In this document: positions 14,326 through 21,547 of the stretch, piece after piece
How the letters are laid out: every line of letters begins with the position of its first letter
Position numbering within the stretch: position 1 is the stretch's first letter
From: Hyphomicrobiales bacterium
GTDB lineage: Bacteria; Pseudomonadota; Alphaproteobacteria; Rhizobiales; Rhizobiaceae
Reading direction: 5' to 3'
Assembly: GCA_900471605.1 (NCBI GenBank)
Contig: UCEY01000043.1
Location: forward strand, 124,001 to 188,000
Length of the DNA stretch: 64,000 nucleotides
The notes under the pieces: model-generated
The model's database searches: none
Told to the model about the DNA's origin: nothing
Seen by the model: the letters and a program-made list of their open reading frames with translations, nothing else
Made by a program: the position numbers and the translations under genes

Positions 14326-15492
14326 ATGGCGCTGAACCGCACATATCTGGACTGGAACGCGACGGCGCCCTTGAGCGCGCCGGCCCGCGCGGCCATGCTG
14401 GAAGCGCTGCAATTGCCCGGAAATGCCTCCTCGGTGCATGGCGAGGGCAGGGCGGCGCGCGCGGCAGTCGACAAGGCGCGCCGGCAGGTGGCGGCGCTGG
14501 TTGGCGCCGATCCGGCGCATGTGACCTTCGTCAGCGGTGCGACGGAGGCCGCCAATCACGTGCTGACCGCTGATTTTCGGATGGGCCGGGCGCCGTTGGC
14601 GGTCAGCCGCCTCTTTGTTTCCGCAATCGAGCATCCGGCGATCCGCGAGGGTGGCCGTTTCGATCCGGTTCAGGTGACCGAAGTGCCGGTGACGCCGGCC
14701 GGTATCGTCGATCTGTCGGCGCTCGAAGCGCTGCTGGCTGCGCATGATCGCAGCACCGGCATACCGATGGTTGCCGTCATGCTGGTCAACAACGAGACCG
14801 GCATCATCCAGCCCGTGGCGGAGGCGGCCGCGATCGCCCACGCCCATGGCGGCCTGATGGTCGTGGACGTTGTTCAGGCTGTCGGACGCATTCCGGTGGA
14901 TATCAATGCCCTCGACGCCGATTTCCTGATCCTGTCGTCGCACAAGATCGGCGGTCCGAAAGGCGTCGGAGCGCTGGTCTCGCGCGGCGAGGTGCTGATG
15001 CCCAAACCCCTGATCCGCGGCGGCGGTCAGGAAAAGGGGCACCGCTCGGGCACCGAGAATTTCCACGCGGTGGTCGGTTTTGGCGCTGCGGCCGAGGCGG
15101 TGCGCGAAAATCTCCGCGAGCGCAACGCGTCGATCGAAGAGCTTCGCAACCGGCTGGAAGCGGGAATGCACCAGGCCGCCCCCGATGCCATCATCCATGG
15201 CGAAACAGTTTTGCGCGTGGCGAATACCTGCTTTTTCACTTTGCCGGGGCTGAAGTCGGAAACCGGCCAGATCGCTTTCGATCTCGAGGGCATCGCGCTG
15301 TCTGCCGGCTCCGCGTGTTCCGCGGGAAAAGTTGGCGAAAGCCATGTTTTGACGGCCATGGGGCAGGATCCCAGGCTCGGGGCGCTGAGGATTTCGCTCG
15401 GGACCGACACGACACAGGACGACATCGCGCGGGCGCTTGTCGCCTTCGCCAAGATAGCCGGCCGGCGAAAACCGGCGGGCGAGGCGGCATGA
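14326..15492 (+). CDS. Cysteine desulfurase, IscS/NifS type (first gene of the suf operon)
   Basis: A PLP enzyme of 388 residues that takes sulfur from cysteine and passes it on as persulfide. The PLP lysine lies in SSHKIGGPKG, and the mobile active-site cysteine loop reads LSAGSACSAGKVGESHVL, the long-loop (class I, IscS/NifS) form. This differs from the second desulfurase in the same operon (SufS, class II). It opens the suf operon, 149 bp before sufB; that gap holds an imperfect spacer with a short hairpin. Rhizobial suf operons commonly carry both desulfurase types. The separate jobs of the two enzymes are not known from the sequence. Confidence 0.92.
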   Translation: MALNRTYLDWNATAPLSAPARAAMLEALQLPGNASSVHGEGRAARAAVDKARRQVAALVGADPAHVTFVSGATEAANHVLTADFRMGRAPLAVSRLFVSAIEHPAIREGGRFDPVQVTEVPVTPAGIVDLSALEALLAAHDRSTGIPMVAVMLVNNETGIIQPVAEAAAIAHAHGGLMVVDVVQAVGRIPVDINALDADFLILSSHKIGGPKGVGALVSRGEVLMPKPLIRGGGQEKGHRSGTENFHAVVGFGAAAEAVRENLRERNASIEELRNRLEAGMHQAAPDAIIHGETVLRVANTCFFTLPGLKSETGQIAFDLEGIALSAGSACSAGKVGESHVLTAMGQDPRLGALRISLGTDTTQDDIARALVAFAKIAGRRKPAGEAA

Positions 15493-15602
15493 CCGCTTCC
15501 AAAATTGCGCAAGTGCAAATTTCCGCTTGCCAAAAGGTGTGAAAACCGCCTTCTGGCGCCTACATGAGGGTGACGACTGTCCCCCCGGAATGATGACAAG
15601 AA

Positions 15603-15624
15603 TTGCCGGAATTTGAACCGGCAA
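15603..15624 (+). other. Small inverted repeat just upstream of sufB
   Basis: Arms TTGCCGG and CCGGCAA enclose eight bases and end 16 bp before the sufB start. A TTGGAGTAAG ribosome-binding region follows. It could mark an RNA processing or stabilising hairpin between the desulfurase and sufB. The function is not shown. Confidence 0.4.
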
Positions 15625-15640
15625 GATTTGGAGTAAGAAC

Positions 15641-17110
15641 ATGGCTGCCGTGCAGGAAACAATCGATCAGGTTCGCCAGATCGATGTGGACCAGTACAAA
15701 TACGGTTTCGAAACCGTCATCGAAGTGGACAAGGCGCCAAAAGGTCTTTCGGAAGAGATCATCCGTTTCATCTCGGCCAAGAAGCAGGAGCCGGATTGGA
15801 TGCTGGAATGGCGTCTCGACGCCTATCGCCGCTGGCTGACCATGGAAGAGCCCACCTGGGCGCGCGTCGAATATCCGAAGATCGACTTCAACGACCTCCA
15901 TTATTACGCCGCGCCGAAAAGCAGCGCCGGCCCGAAGTCGCTTGAGGAAGTCGACCCGGAGCTGTTGAAGGTCTACGAGAAGCTCGGAATTCCGCTGCGC
16001 GAACAGGAAATTCTCGCCGGCGTCGAGACGCCGCGGGTTGCCGTCGACGCCGTCTTCGACTCGGTCTCGGTCGTCACCACCTTCAAGAAGGAGCTCCAGA
16101 AGGCCGGCGTGATCTTCATGTCGATCTCCGAAGCGATCCGCGAATATCCGGAGCTCGTGAGGAAATATCTGGGCTCGGTCGTTCCGCAGTCGGACAATTT
16201 CTACGCCACGCTGAACTCTGCCGTCTTCACCGACGGGTCCTTCGTCTTCGTGCCGAAGGGCGTGCGGTGCCCGATGGAACTGTCCACCTATTTCCGCATC
16301 AATGAGAAGAATACCGGCCAGTTCGAGCGCACGCTGATCATTGCCGAGGAAGGCGCCTACGTATCCTACCTCGAAGGCTGCACGGCGCCGCAGCGCGACG
16401 AGAACCAGCTTCACGCCGCCGTCGTCGAACTCGTCGCCCTCGACGATGCCGAGATCAAATATTCGACGGTGCAGAACTGGTATCCGGGCGATGCGCAGGG
16501 CAAGGGCGGCATCTACAATTTCGTCACCAAGCGCGGCGATTGCCGCGGCGCCCGTTCGAAAATCTCCTGGACGCAGGTCGAGACCGGTTCGGCGATCACC
16601 TGGAAATATCCGAGCTGCATCCTGCGCGGCGACGATTCTCGGGGCGAGTTCTATTCGATCGCCGTGTCCAACGGCTACCAGCAGATCGACTCAGGCACCA
16701 AGATGATCCATCTCGGCAAGAACACCTCGAGCCGCATCATCTCCAAGGGCATTTCCGCCGGCAATTCGAACAATACCTATCGCGGTCAGGTTTCGATCAA
16801 CCGCCGGGCCGCGAATGCGCGCAACTTCACCAATTGCGATAGTCTTCTGATCGGCGACCAGTGCGGTGCCCATACGGTGCCCTATATCGACGTAAAGAAC
16901 GCATCGGCGCAGATCGAGCACGAGGCGACGACGTCGAAGATCTCCGAGGACCAGAAGTTCTACGTCATGCAGCGCGGCATTCCCGAAGAGGAAGCCATTG
17001 CGCTGATCGTCAACGGCTTCGTCAAGGACGTCATCCAGCAGCTGCCGATGGAATTCGCTGTCGAGGCCCAGAAGCTGATCGGCATCTCGCTCGAGGGGAG
17101 CGTCGGCTAA
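15641..17110 (+). CDS. sufB: Fe-S cluster scaffold subunit SufB
   Basis: The central scaffold subunit of the SufBCD complex, which builds iron-sulfur clusters in the cytoplasm. At 489 residues it has the expected SufB size, with a helical N-terminal part ([15 protein letters not shown]) and the long beta-helix core ([51 protein letters not shown]). The C-terminal ENG-like block appears as [18 protein letters not shown], where SufC docks. GGAG at a good distance precedes the ATG. It is followed by an unusual 515 bp gap to sufC containing the GIY-YIG element. Confidence 0.97.
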
Positions 17111-17122
17111 ACGCTTGAAAGA

Positions 17123-17151
17123 CGTCATCCTCGGGCTTGTCCCGAGGATCT
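17123..17151 (+). repeat. Left palindromic end of the GIY-YIG element
   Basis: Begins 13 bp after the sufB stop. It is an exact reverse complement of the right end, with an internal nine-pair stem and a CTTGT loop. An RNA copy would form a stable hairpin in the sufB-sufC message. It also overlaps spurious in-frame TTG start sequence before the nuclease gene. Confidence 0.9.
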
Positions 17152-17172
17152 GCGAAGGCCGACGGGATAGGA

Positions 17173-17514
17173 ATGACCGGGTTCGTCTACATGATGTCCG
17201 ACAAGCCACGGGGTGTGATCTACACCGGCGTCACGAGCGATTTGCAGGGACGCGCATGGGAACACCGCAATGAGATACAGAAGGGCTTCACTCAGAAATA
17301 TAAGGCTAAAAATCTGGTGTGGTTCGAGACTCATCCGAACATCGTGGCGGCGATAAAGCGCGAGAAGTCCTTGAAGCGCTATTTGCGGGAATGGAAGATC
17401 AAGCTCATAGAAGATTTCAATCCGACTTGGATCGACCTTTATGAGCGAATAGACGAAATCGAGAATGTCTATCGACCCCATCCGAATACGCGGTCGTGGG
17501 GCGATTACAATTGA
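17173..17514 (+). CDS. GIY-YIG family nuclease, bracketed by inverted palindromes
   Basis: A 113-residue protein consisting of one GIY-YIG domain. The signature is visible as FVYMM (Tyr6) and VIYTGVT (Tyr17, Gly19), then Arg27 and His31 (RAWEHR) and the metal-binding Glu64 in AIKREKSLK, so the active site looks complete. It has no DNA-binding extension of the kind seen in homing endonucleases and resembles the stand-alone UPF0213/YhbQ-like group. Codon use looks more AT-rich than in sufB and sufC. ATG 17173 is preferred; an upstream TTG at 17137 lies in the repeat. Its place inside an operon, framed by identical inverted palindromes, suggests it belongs to the repeat and not to Fe-S assembly. 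Confidence 0.88.
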   Translation: MTGFVYMMSDKPRGVIYTGVTSDLQGRAWEHRNEIQKGFTQKYKAKNLVWFETHPNIVAAIKREKSLKRYLREWKIKLIEDFNPTWIDLYERIDEIENVYRPHPNTRSWGDYN

Positions 17515-17520
17515 AGGCTT

Positions 17521-17549
17521 AGATCCTCGGGACAAGCCCGAGGATGACG
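17521..17549 (-). repeat. Right palindromic end of the GIY-YIG element
   Basis: Begins 6 bp after the nuclease stop and is the reverse complement of 17123-17151 over 29 bases. The stem arms are ATCCTCGGG and CCCGAGGAT with an ACAAG loop. It could act as a transcript-stabilising or attenuating hairpin before sufC. Confidence 0.9.
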
Positions 17550-17625
17550 GATCAGAAAACGGACCGCTGCCTCAAGCGGTCACAGAAGGCGGCCCTTGAA
17601 CCCGCTGTATGAACAGGAAGACAAG

Positions 17626-18381
17626 ATGCTTGAGATCAAGAACCTGCACGCCCGTATCGCCGAAGACGGCACCGAAATCATCCGCGGCCTGAACCTGACC
17701 GTGAAGGCCGGCGAAATCGCCGCCATCATGGGGCCGAACGGGTCCGGCAAGTCGACGCTTTCCTATATCCTGTCGGGCCGCCAGGATTACGAAGTCACCG
17801 AGGGCGACATCCTCTATAACGGCGAGAGCATTCTGGAGCTCGACCCGGCCGAGCGCGCCTCTAAGGGCATCTTCCTCGCCTTCCAGTACCCGCTCGAAAT
17901 TCCGGGCGTCGCCACCATGCAGTTCCTGAAGGTCGCGATGAACGAACAGCGCAAGGCGCGCGGCGAAGCGGAACTGACGACGCCGGACTTCATGCGCCGC
18001 GTCAAGGACGCTGCCGAAAAGCTGAAGATCGACCAGGCCATGCTGCGCCGTCCGCTGAACGTCGGTTTCTCCGGCGGCGAAAAGAAGCGGGCCGAGATCC
18101 TGCAGATGGCGCTGCTCGAGCCGAAGCTCTGCATCCTCGACGAGACCGATAGCGGCCTCGACATCGACGCGCTGAAGATCGTTGCCGACGGCGTCAACGC
18201 GCTGAAGTCGCCGGATCGCGCCACGATCGTCATCACCCACTATCAGCGCCTGCTCGATTACATCGTGCCGGACACGGTCCACGTTCTCTACAAGGGCCAG
18301 ATCATCCGCTCCGGCGACAAGGCGCTCGCGCTCGAGCTGGAAGAGAACGGCTATGCCGATATCATCGGAGAAGCGGCTTAA
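17626..18381 (+). CDS. sufC: Fe-S cluster assembly ATPase SufC
   Basis: The ABC-type ATPase that drives the SufBCD scaffold. It has 251 residues, with Walker A GPNGSGKST, Q-loop FLAFQYPLEIPG, signature FSGGEKKRAEI and Walker B CILDETDSGLD; the D-for-P change in the Walker B region (DETDSGLD) is typical of SufC. The start is at ATG 17626, preceded by AGGAAG; an upstream TTG at 17596 lies before the ribosome binding site and is unlikely. It ends 25 bp before sufD and is separated from sufB by the GIY-YIG element. Confidence 0.97.
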   Translation: MLEIKNLHARIAEDGTEIIRGLNLTVKAGEIAAIMGPNGSGKSTLSYILSGRQDYEVTEGDILYNGESILELDPAERASKGIFLAFQYPLEIPGVATMQFLKVAMNEQRKARGEAELTTPDFMRRVKDAAEKLKIDQAMLRRPLNVGFSGGEKKRAEILQMALLEPKLCILDETDSGLDIDALKIVADGVNALKSPDRATIVITHYQRLLDYIVPDTVHVLYKGQIIRSGDKALALELEENGYADIIGEAA

Positions 18382-18406
18382 GCGGCCTGAAGGGAAGGAT
18401 GTTGTC

Positions 18407-19681
18407 ATGAACATGCAGACGACAAGCCGTCTCACGGCTGCCGAAACCGCGTTGGTGGAAGCCTTCGGCGCCCAGATCGGCGAACTGCCCGGCAATGGCG
18501 CCGTCATCGGCACGCGTGACCGGCTGCTGGACGAGCTCAAGAAGGCCGGCCTGCCGACCCGCCGCATCGAGGCCTGGCATTATACCGACCTCAAGAACCT
18601 GATGCGCAGCGTCCCGGACGCGGCGCAGGTTTCTGCCATCGATCCGATCGCGCCGCTGGTCGAGGGGTCGAAGGTCCTCTCGATCCTTCAGGGCGAGGCA
18701 GATGCGAAGGCCGCCGTGGACGGCGTCGAGATCGAACTCTTCAAGGACAGGCTCGCCGACGGTTCGGCCGCTGCCGGCCTGACGGCGCTCGACAAGGACG
18801 ATGCGATCGGCCGTATCAACGGCAGCTTCGTGCGCGATGGTTATGCGCTCACCGTTCCGGCCGATACGGAATTGGACGCGCCGATCGAACTACAGGCCCT
18901 GCATGCCGCGGGTCAGGTGCATACGCGCTTCCCGGTCTCGTTCGGTGCCGCATCCAAGGCGACGATCATCGAACGTCACCGGTCGGTGACGGAGGGTGCG
19001 GCGCTGGTGTCCTCGATCAGTGACATCACGCTGGAGGACGGCGCCGACATCACATGGATCATCCTGCAGCAGCAGGCTGCAGAGGATACCCATCTCGGCC
19101 AGATCCGGGTAAAGCTCGGCACCAAGGCCAAGCTGCGCCTGTTCGTCATCAATGCCGGCGGCAAGCTGGTGCGCCAGGAACTGCGCATCGACGTGGTCGG
19201 AGAAGGTGCGGAACTGATGCTGCGCGGCGTCAACCTGCTCGGCGCCGAAAGCCACACGGATGTCACGCTGGTGCTCGGCCACAACGTGCCGCACACCAAT
19301 TCGACGGAGATCATCCGCAACGTCGTGTTCGACCGCGCCAACGGCGTGTTCCAGGGCATGATCCGGGTCGCTCCGGATGCCCAGAAGACCGACGCCAAGA
19401 TGTCCTGCAACACGCTTCTGCTGACCGACGACGGCGGGTTCTCGGCCAAGCCCGAACTCGAAATCTTCGCCGACGACGTGGTCTGCGGCCATGGCGCGAC
19501 GGTTGCCGATATCGAGAGCAGCCATCTCTTCTACCTGATGGCCCGCGGCGTTCCGGAAAAGAAGGCCCGTGCCATGCTGGTCAACGCTTTCGTCGCCGAG
19601 ATCGTCGAGGAGCTCGAAGAAGAAAAGCTGGTCGAGGCACTGGAAGGCGTCATTTCGGCTTGGCTTGAAAAGCACGCCTGA
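18407..19681 (+). CDS. sufD: Fe-S cluster assembly subunit SufD
   Basis: Partner of SufB in the scaffold complex, 424 residues. It has the SufD N-terminal helical region with a RIEAWHYTDLKNLMR block, a beta-helix core, and the C-terminal block FADDVVCGHGATVADIESSH followed by LMARGVPEKKARAMLVNAFV, where SufC binds. ATG 18407 follows a GAAGGA ribosome binding site; earlier in-frame starts would overlap sufC. The gene ends 60 bp before the second inverted-palindrome element, which fills part of the 202 bp gap to sufS. Confidence 0.96.
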   Translation: MNMQTTSRLTAAETALVEAFGAQIGELPGNGAVIGTRDRLLDELKKAGLPTRRIEAWHYTDLKNLMRSVPDAAQVSAIDPIAPLVEGSKVLSILQGEADAKAAVDGVEIELFKDRLADGSAAAGLTALDKDDAIGRINGSFVRDGYALTVPADTELDAPIELQALHAAGQVHTRFPVSFGAASKATIIERHRSVTEGAALVSSISDITLEDGADITWIILQQQAAEDTHLGQIRVKLGTKAKLRLFVINAGGKLVRQELRIDVVGEGAELMLRGVNLLGAESHTDVTLVLGHNVPHTNSTEIIRNVVFDRANGVFQGMIRVAPDAQKTDAKMSCNTLLLTDDGGFSAKPELEIFADDVVCGHGATVADIESSHLFYLMARGVPEKKARAMLVNAFVAEIVEELEEEKLVEALEGVISAWLEKHA

Positions 19682-19741
19682 GGGAATCACAGTGTCCCCG
19701 CCAAGTTGGGGCCGCTGACTGACTAAGGCCATGCCACTTCG

Positions 19742-19828
19742 CGTCATCCTCGGGCTTGTCCCGAGGATCCCAGCCGGTTCAAAAAAGGTAGGCGTGGACA
19801 GATCCTCGGGACAAGCCCGAGGATGACG
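19742..19828. repeat. Short inverted-palindrome pair, likely non-autonomous copy of the GIY-YIG element
   Basis: Two 28 bp ends (19742-19769 and 19801-19828) are exact reverse complements of each other and match the ends of the 17123-17549 element. Only 31 bp lies between them, with no gene. Each end folds alone (nine-pair stem, five-base loop), or the two can pair to give a 28-pair stem. The composition resembles rhizobial RIME-like intergenic elements, which also have two palindromes, but identity with a named family was not tested. Confidence 0.85.
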
Positions 19829-19883
19829 TGGAGCAAGCGGCAAGGCTGCGATAAACCTTCTGCGGTAGCTCCTTGAGAGCGAC

Positions 19884-21143
19884 ATGAAAGGGTCTGAAAT
19901 GGACCAGACGACACCGGTTACTGCCTACGACGTCGAAGCCATCCGGCGGGATTTCCCGATCCTGTCGACCATGGTGCACGGCAACAAACCGCTCGTGTAC
20001 CTGGACAACGGCGCCTCGGCCCAGAAGCCGCAGGTGGTGATCGACGCGATCAGCCACGCCTATTCCAACGAATATGCAAACGTCCATCGCGGCCTGCATT
20101 TCCTCTCGAATGCGGCGACCGACGCCTACGAGGCGGCGCGCGAAAAGGTGCGCCGGTTCCTGAATGCCGGCTCGGTCGACGAGATCGTCTTTACCAAGAA
20201 CTCCACCGAGGCGATCAACACGGTCGCCTATGGCTGGGGCATGCCGAACATCGGCGAGGGCGACGAGATCGTGGTGACGATCATGGAGCATCATTCCAAC
20301 ATCGTTCCCTGGCATTTCATCCGCGAGCGGCAGGGCGCCAAGCTGGTCTGGGTGCCGGTCGACGACGACGGCGCTTTCCATATCGAGGATTTCGAAAAGA
20401 GCCTGACCGAAAAGACCAAGCTCGTCGCGATCACCCATATGTCGAACGCGCTCGGCACCGTGGTCCCGGTCAAGGAAGTCTGCCGCATAGCCCATGAGCG
20501 CGGCATTCCGGTCCTCATCGACGGCAGCCAGGGGGCCGTGCACATGCCGGTCGATGTCCGTGACATCGATTGCGACTGGTACGTGATGACCGGACACAAG
20601 CTCTATGGCCCATCGGGCATCGGCGTGCTCTACGGCAAGGCAGATCGTTTGCGCGAGATGCGCCCGTTCCAGGGCGGCGGCGAGATGATCGTCGAGGTCA
20701 CCGAGGATATCGTCACCTATAACGACCCGCCGCACCGTTTCGAGGCCGGCACGCCGCCGATCGTACAGGCAATCGGGCTCGGTTATGCGCTCGATTACAT
20801 GGAAAAGGTCGGCCGCGCGGCGATCGCCCGCCACGAGGCGGATCTGGCGGCCTATGCAGTAGAACGCCTGCGGGCCATCAACTCGCTGCGCATCATCGGC
20901 AACGCGCCGGGCAAGGGCGGCATCTTCTCCTTCGAGCTTGCCGGCATCCACGCCCACGACGTGTCGATGGTGATCGACCGCAAGGGCGTTGCGGTGCGCG
21001 CCGGCACCCATTGCGCCATGCCGCTCTTGAAGCGCTTCGGCGTTACCTCCACATGCAGGGCATCGTTCGGCATGTATAATACCCGTGCCGAAGTGGATGC
21101 GCTGGCCGACGCGCTCGACTACGCCCGCAATTTCTTTGGCTAA
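19884..21143 (+). CDS. sufS: Cysteine desulfurase SufS (class II)
   Basis: Second cysteine desulfurase of the operon, 419 residues from the first ATG. The PLP-binding lysine is in MTGHKLYGPSGIGVLYG and the catalytic cysteine in RAGTHCAMPLLKRFG, the short-loop SufS form that needs a sulfur acceptor. No sufE or sufU partner lies in the window. A second ATG at 19899 with AAAGGG six bases upstream is an equally good or better start. The conserved region begins at VEAIRRDFPIL in either case. The SufT-like gene follows 23 bp later. Confidence 0.95.
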   Translation: MKGSEMDQTTPVTAYDVEAIRRDFPILSTMVHGNKPLVYLDNGASAQKPQVVIDAISHAYSNEYANVHRGLHFLSNAATDAYEAAREKVRRFLNAGSVDEIVFTKNSTEAINTVAYGWGMPNIGEGDEIVVTIMEHHSNIVPWHFIRERQGAKLVWVPVDDDGAFHIEDFEKSLTEKTKLVAITHMSNALGTVVPVKEVCRIAHERGIPVLIDGSQGAVHMPVDVRDIDCDWYVMTGHKLYGPSGIGVLYGKADRLREMRPFQGGGEMIVEVTEDIVTYNDPPHRFEAGTPPIVQAIGLGYALDYMEKVGRAAIARHEADLAAYAVERLRAINSLRIIGNAPGKGGIFSFELAGIHAHDVSMVIDRKGVAVRAGTHCAMPLLKRFGVTSTCRASFGMYNTRAEVDALADALDYARNFFG

Positions 21144-21166
21144 TTTCTTGTTGAGGGAGCCTTGTC

Positions 21167-21547
21167 ATGGCTGTCGACGAAACGGAACTGAAGTGGGATG
21201 CCCGGGAAGGGATCATCCAGTCCGCAATCCCGGCCGATGAACTGGCGCGCCTGAGCGACGACATCATCGGAGCGCTGAAAACGGTCTACGACCCGGAAAT
21301 CCCGGCCGATATTTTCGAACTCGGCCTGATCTACAAGATCGACATCGAGGACGACCGCATGGTCAAGATCGTCATGACGCTGACCGCACCCGGCTGCCCG
21401 GTTGCCGGCGAAATGCCGGGCTGGGTGGAAAACGCCGTCGGCGCCATCGAAGGCGTGTCCGGCGTCGAAGTCGAGATGACCTTCGATCCGCCGTGGACGC
21501 CGGAGCGCATGTCGGAAGAAGCGCAGGTCGCCGTCGGCTGGTATTGA
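21167..21547 (+). CDS. sufT: SufT-like DUF59 / MIP18 family Fe-S maturation protein
   Basis: A 126-residue protein with a DUF59 (MIP18) domain: YDPEIPADIFELGLIYKI near the middle and LTAPGCPVAGEMPGWVENAV with the conserved cysteine. SufT-type proteins help mature or deliver Fe-S clusters. In alphaproteobacterial suf operons this gene commonly lies between sufS and sufA, as here. The N-terminal ~40 residues are an extension before the domain. The exact client proteins are not known. Confidence 0.88.
   Translation: MAVDETELKWDAREGIIQSAIPADELARLSDDIIGALKTVYDPEIPADIFELGLIYKIDIEDDRMVKIVMTLTAPGCPVAGEMPGWVENAVGAIEGVSGVEVEMTFDPPWTPERMSEEAQVAVGWY

Follow-up and report, generated by a model that had tools for sequence, protein, structure and literature searches.

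The window, by which we mean the whole stretch of 64,000 nucleotides analysed here, carries a suf operon in which the gap between sufB and sufC is occupied by a small GIY-YIG nuclease gene together with a palindromic repeat on each side of it (Table 1). A first-pass annotation of this DNA had described a nuclease gene of low GC content, set inside the operon between perfect inverted ends, each of them able to fold alone, and our analysis confirmed that description. The two arms, each of 29 nt and separated by 369 nt, are 100% complementary, and either one alone forms a hairpin with a 9-bp stem and a 5-nt loop. The GC content of the gene is 50.3%, versus 59.1% for sufB, 62.3% for sufC and 62.5% for the window. 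The gene runs from ATG 17173 to its stop at 17514; an in-frame TTG at 17137, located inside the upstream repeat, is not a likely start. In the 7.12-Mb genome to which the window belongs (G000) the gene interior has a single match.

Table 1. Features at and around the nuclease unit of the window
Feature	Position	Strand	Details
sufB, upstream neighbour	15641..17110	+	named from recognised sequence, not from a family search
Upstream CGTC-tagged REP	17123..17151	+	tag CGTC, 9-bp stem, loop CTTGT, tail CTGC; tag points away from the gene
GIY-YIG nuclease gene	17173..17514	+	113 aa, clade A (FVYMMSDKPRGVIYTGVTSDL), probable Ssn-type
Downstream REP	17521..17549	-	inverted copy, 100% complementary to the upstream REP, tag outward
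sufC, downstream neighbour	17626..18381	+	named from recognised sequence; listed frame opens at TTG 17596
Second T-loop REP occurrence	19742..19829		head-to-head pair without a gene, sufD-sufS gap, same operon

The palindrome fits the CGTC REP superfamily as defined in the available part of Di Nocera, De Gregorio and Rocco (2013; PMC3733652), with a CGTC tag, a stem of 8-9 bp with AT at its base and a loop of 4-5 nt. The likeness to the published repeats includes the 9-bp stem, the 5-nt loop and the occurrence of head-to-head dimers; most of the head-to-head pairs inspected in G000 have their tags outward. The tails are different, as most members described in that part of the paper fit CCA, whereas those of the window REPs are CTGC and CTAA. 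The same text places CGTC REPs mostly in alphaproteobacteria and names S. meliloti and A. tumefaciens among other species. When single arms were folded as DNA, the four strands gave energies of -9.8 to -10.2 kcal/mol (z -4.1 to -4.8), with the CGTC tag unpaired in the best structure of three strands and partly paired with the tail in the fourth (17123-17155, plus strand). A search of G000 with the REP pattern, allowing up to two mismatches, returned 31 matches on one strand and 30 on the other, with some palindromes counted on each, and none for a reversed control pattern; the exact T-loop form gave six matches. Rfam at gathering thresholds had no match within positions 15000-21500 of the window. 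In another genome, G060, we noticed 26 and 29 matches to the REP pattern, yet the PF01541 search found uvrC only, as would be expected if the enzyme had been lost after the repeats spread.

The window protein matches the Pfam GIY-YIG family PF01541 (E 1.4e-11, 45 bits against a cut-off of 22.6), and this is its sole Pfam match, that is, the HUH tyrosine transposase domain of RAYT was not among its matches. Residues Y6, Y17, G19, R27, E64 and N83, which we take to be catalytic-type residues of GIY-YIG enzymes, are invariant among 47 sequences. The predicted structure (pLDDT 88.6) lies nearest to the UPF0213 protein 1zg2 (Foldseek E 0.0044) and Slx1 among solved structures, and Foldseek returned no match for the model at E ≤ 0.001. 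Among solved structures, the UPF0213 GIY-YIG proteins (1zg2, 1ywl) come closest in both sequence and fold, with about 22% identity in the fold alignment and that E-value at best. Genes of clade A, to which the window gene belongs, are under purifying selection, with a median dN/dS of 0.08 (17 usable of 120 pairs). NCBIfam had no family match for the window protein, and six of ten members of the nuclease family matched TIGR01453, the group I intron endonuclease family (best E 2.5e-5). A component of a defence system was considered and set aside, PADLOC having no match for the window protein; its matches for other members were weak (homing endonuclease in 2/10, best E 0.002; UzuA in 1/10, 0.0064). 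A suf-specific or Fe-S role was likewise rejected: the clade A gene is absent from 48 of 57 genus genomes and its relatives stand in other contexts, in line with the earlier remark that the gene has no clear part in Fe-S assembly.

The pairing of nuclease and repeat is not confined to this locus. We collected 171 small GIY-YIG loci from 57 genus genomes, 80 genome-collection loci, the best loci of 240 class genomes and 20 loci of three multi-copy genomes, and counted an inverted repeat if it scored at least 16 within 350 bp on both sides. Such a repeat framed 95 of the 171 loci, versus 9 of 617 shifted windows at the same loci, and was not found at the remaining 76. After merging identical proteins 90 of 160 loci were framed. 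By set, the framed loci amounted to 9/9 for clade A of the genus, 18/33 for the other genus loci, 50/80 for the genome collection, 14/29 for the class and 4/20 for the multi-copy genomes. The repeat contained a hairpin at 84 of the 95 framed loci and a GTC-tagged hairpin at 74. None of 13 other GIY-YIG genes (eight genes of other PF01541 families, five uvrC) was framed. In a separate set the figure was 32 of 42, composed of 30/40 testable viral-contig loci and 2/2 plasmid-collection loci.

In G000 itself three PF01541 genes were found: uvrC, the window gene and a gene on contig C79. Inverted REPs of the same family stand on either side of each of the two small genes; on C79 their loops are CTCGA and CTTGG, and a further copy close by has CTTGA. 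Since the one small GIY-YIG gene that the search of G000 yielded besides the window gene is also REP-framed, the framing of the window gene is not chance. The expected excess of GIY-YIG genes beside such repeats was thus borne out, and with it the suggestion that palindrome and nuclease belong together in a layout resembling REPs and their RAYT, with another nuclease family in place of the transposase; it is further supported by the covariation described below. As observations of their own, the pairing of a nuclease between repeats occurs also on contigs classed as viral (L264-L309), and three genomes (G203, G171 and G083; L220-L239) hold 5 to 10 small GIY-YIG copies each, 16 of these 20 loci being without a flanking inverted repeat.

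Nuclease and REP vary together. The distance between REP cores correlates with that between nucleases (Mantel r 0.50 for 84 loci and 0.32 for 50 non-redundant ones, p 0.0005 each). On the nuclease tree, which is built on 97 columns and has many weak forks, the REP core changes 45 times, versus at least 59 in 100 shuffles, and loop length 9 times, versus at least 15 in 100 shuffles; among REPs of the same stem the last loop base changes twice, versus at least five times in 200 shuffles. These Mantel and shuffle figures overstate independence, as REP and nuclease partly share host ancestry.

Within one genus, three nuclease clades correspond to three REP types. Clade A (113 aa) has the loop CTTGT in all nine genus genomes that carry it, clade B (mostly 94-96 aa) mostly the loop CTTGA and a tail that is mostly CCA, and clade C the REP stem TTCCTGTG wherever the repeat was found. 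Outside the genus, clade A has CCTGT once and CTTGC once, and at L092 its REPs lie on one side only. Genomes holding several clades carry a different REP at each (L010 and L009 in G000; L013, L049, L072 and L073 in G010), so the match does not reflect host ancestry only, although ancestry contributes. REP copies that do not flank a nuclease are only moderately commoner in genomes with the cognate enzyme (p 0.014 for the T-loop and 0.026 for the A-loop form, uncorrected for shared ancestry), and exact T-loop REPs are still present in 22 of 48 genomes without clade A.

The sister clades B and C show where the unit begins. Their upstream flanks are diverse: 35 clade B loci, duplicates between collections included, fall into one group of 12, five small groups and 12 singletons, and 18 clade C loci into four small groups and 9 singletons. 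For three pairs of loci in different contexts (L060/L063, L064/L075 and L072/L073, the last with the same protein at two loci of G010) homology starts at the REP tag or within about 15 bp of it. On the right it continues past the downstream REP for about 25 bp in L060/L063 and for about 500 bp or more in the other two pairs. The left edge of the unit is therefore sharp at the REP tag, and the right edge is not. Over all comparisons, homology on the left reached the REP in 146/283 for clade B and 12/43 for clade C and then stopped within 50 bp in 125 and 12 of them, the other left ends (137/283 and 31/43) stopping inside the unit before the REP. On the right the REP was reached in 89/165 and 37/54, with a stop within 50 bp in 69 and 32, and the comparisons not reaching it stopped inside the unit. 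The tags point outward in most cases: among 34 clade B and 17 clade C loci, this holds for the nearest upstream REP in 24/28 and 10/10 and for the nearest downstream REP in 17/20 and 9/13, the remainder having no REP within 250 bp by pattern. Two longer repeats were seen near such units, one of about 350 bp (L075, oriented 2063-2413), without a long open frame, which is matched in several Rhizobium genomes and adjoins some nuclease units, and one of about 400 bp (L009, query 814-1211), with many copies across the genus, near a clade B unit.

The window unit behaves otherwise. All 17 clade A loci (16/16 and one Shinella record) are placed at sufB-sufC, also outside the genus, in Peteryoungia, Pannonibacter and others. 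The divergence of clade A follows that of sufB (r 0.51, p 0.0002), less so that of sufC (r 0.34, p 0.011), and each of the nine genus genomes carrying it, among 57 examined, has one copy. As clade A is found at this one site and diverges with sufB, the window unit looks resident and not recently jumping. The proposal of an intergenic mobile unit is thus supported for clades B and C, found at different loci with a left edge at the REP tag, but not for the window copy.

For this reason we consider it unlikely that the unit is an active transposon, with the nuclease as its own transposase, that recently inserted into the suf operon. Such an element would account for the several to many contexts in which clades B and C occur, bounded on the left by the REP, for the two copies of the same protein in G010, and for a clade C unit that G001 has and G015 lacks, the flanks in G015 being 13 bp apart at the same intergenic site. 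The G001 insert, however, measures 726 bp, which is more than REP to REP; further repeats are layered into it, and in other genomes the site is occupied by a different repeat, so that this comparison was discarded as a source of exact insertion edges. Copies at several loci, as a transposon with terminal inverted repeats would have, are seen in the sister clades but not in clade A. Inspection of the unit ends by eye, not by systematic scan, revealed no target-site duplication, and no fresh insertion of the unit was caught in the genomes compared.

The sufB-sufC gap is an insertion-prone gap in a core operon. In 32 genus genomes it holds the nuclease gene in nine, a REP pair only in two (G012, G018), a decayed palindrome in one (G029), 65-92 bp in eight and other, longer sequence in 12. 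These 12 longer gaps (L024-L030, L034, L035, L038, L039, L041) measure 240-867 bp and several have apparent small open frames, as judged by eye. Two nuclease relatives outside clade A (L103, L175) also lie between sufB and sufC, with other repeats, so it may be that genes of this kind are drawn to the gap or retained in it. Gene-less gaps, which the first-pass annotation proposed to look for as empty sites, do exist in relatives, but the best of them, in G025, may be a scar of loss: it seemed empty, the alignment leaves a possible decayed REP there, and it was not retained as a clean empty site. No proven pre-insertion site for the window copy was found among the genomes compared. The gaps of G001, G002 and G015 hold another type of intergenic sequence and lack the unit, yet over the last ~209 bp of sufB these genomes are 93-94% identical to the window; because of this near-identity without the unit, the allele of G000 and G063 may have been brought in by recombination.

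The same three genomes, together with the constant site of clade A and the gene-less REP pairs of G012 and G018 in this very gap, would agree with a homing-like process, in which gene-less REP pairs are cut by the nuclease and then repaired on the template of a relative's allele, so that the gene is copied into that site. We regard this as still less probable than a recent transposition, given that at many other loci REP pairs have no nuclease with them, that deletion or independent insertion would explain the G012 and G018 pairs just as well, and that the REPs of these two pairs differ from those of the window in loop and tail. It is most improbable, and already largely refuted, that the REPs are merely transcript-stabilising hairpins or terminators around an unrelated small gene, for although their place between the genes of an operon means that they would be transcribed, and a second pair lies between sufD and sufS, this reading leaves the excess at these loci (95/171 versus 9/617), its lack at other GIY-YIG genes (0/13) and the covariation of REP and nuclease without explanation, and no T-run follows either hairpin (by eye, not by terminator scan), the reason for which an intrinsic terminator was rejected.

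A precedent comes from Neisseria meningitidis, in which site-specific GIY-YIG nucleases of single-stranded DNA with a repeated target, named Ssn and NTS respectively, have reportedly been described (about 2025). Ssn nucleases are reported to cleave only single-stranded DNA at their cognate sequence. A homologue with 44% identity, presumably Ssn, lies inside an array of dRS3-like repeats in Neisseria gonorrhoeae, on a chromosome-sized record filed among plasmids. Common to the Ssn/NTS system and the window unit are a small stand-alone GIY-YIG protein and repeats of the CGTC/dRS3 kind adjoining the gene. The window gene differs in being bracketed by a perfect inverted pair with another REP sequence, in an operon of a probable Rhizobium. 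The earlier belief that no system of this type had been characterised is thus probably wrong.

The second parallel is with REPtrons, where, as in our unit, an enzyme gene lies beside tagged hairpins and REPs are spread over the genome, and where REPs are enzyme-specific, as those of our unit may be (available parts of PMC8266576 and PMC2817692). According to the available text of PMC8266576, the TnpA-REP enzymes use both the tag and the hairpin of single-stranded REPs; they are HUH tyrosine enzymes acting on a GTAG tag, in contrast to a GIY-YIG nuclease with a CGTC tag. From the analogy with REPtrons and Ssn nucleases we expect the window nuclease to recognise the single-stranded, hairpin form of its own REP.

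We therefore favour as likely the reading that the REP-gene-REP segment 17123-17549 is a REPtron-like unit, whose Ssn-type nuclease, probably single-strand-specific, recognises the flanking REP, and which has long resided between sufB and sufC. The flanking REP would be the cognate sequence of this small stand-alone enzyme, repeated in the host genome. Recognition of the CGTC-tagged repeat would be most likely when it is single-stranded and folded into a hairpin, during replication or DNA uptake, and the nuclease would bind it and place a nick in the hairpin or close by. Over evolutionary time, cuts of this kind and the host repair or replication that follows them could have spread REPs and head-to-head pairs, and in the sister clades the same process may have carried the nuclease unit to new loci. 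The window unit itself would have been mostly inherited with the operon, while being absent from most species of the genus. More tentatively, and with some doubt on our part, CGTC REPs, which occur in several phyla, might form a second, independently evolved class of REP mobilisation, in which a GIY-YIG nuclease, not an HUH transposase, processes single-stranded hairpins, enzyme and repeat co-diversify, the unit is mobile, and the suf copy has been domesticated and locked to its site.

If the Ssn work covers such units, the window system is known in kind. What appears to be new, as judged from the part of the literature that was searched, is the pairing of CGTC REPs with this family of nucleases, the correspondence of three clades with three REP types in a single genus, the unit edged by REPs and the site-locked suf member. 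Among the papers listed in that search, none was seen to link GIY-YIG to REPs in its title or at the start of its abstract. Both terms occur in the available text of PMC9465073, where they are used apart, and GIY-YIG is not mentioned in the available part of PMC3733652.

These results connect REP biology with the Ssn nucleases mentioned above. They also predict, locus by locus, the hairpin that each nuclease should recognise, and clades A, B and C of one genus provide built-in mismatched controls for the cutting of oligonucleotides. The 2013 description of CGTC REPs stated, in the part available, that they "lack a dedicated transposase" (PMC3733652), and it left the question of what spreads these repeats, from Rhizobium to Neisseria. 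With the nucleases described here, this orphan class of REPs gains a likely partner enzyme family.
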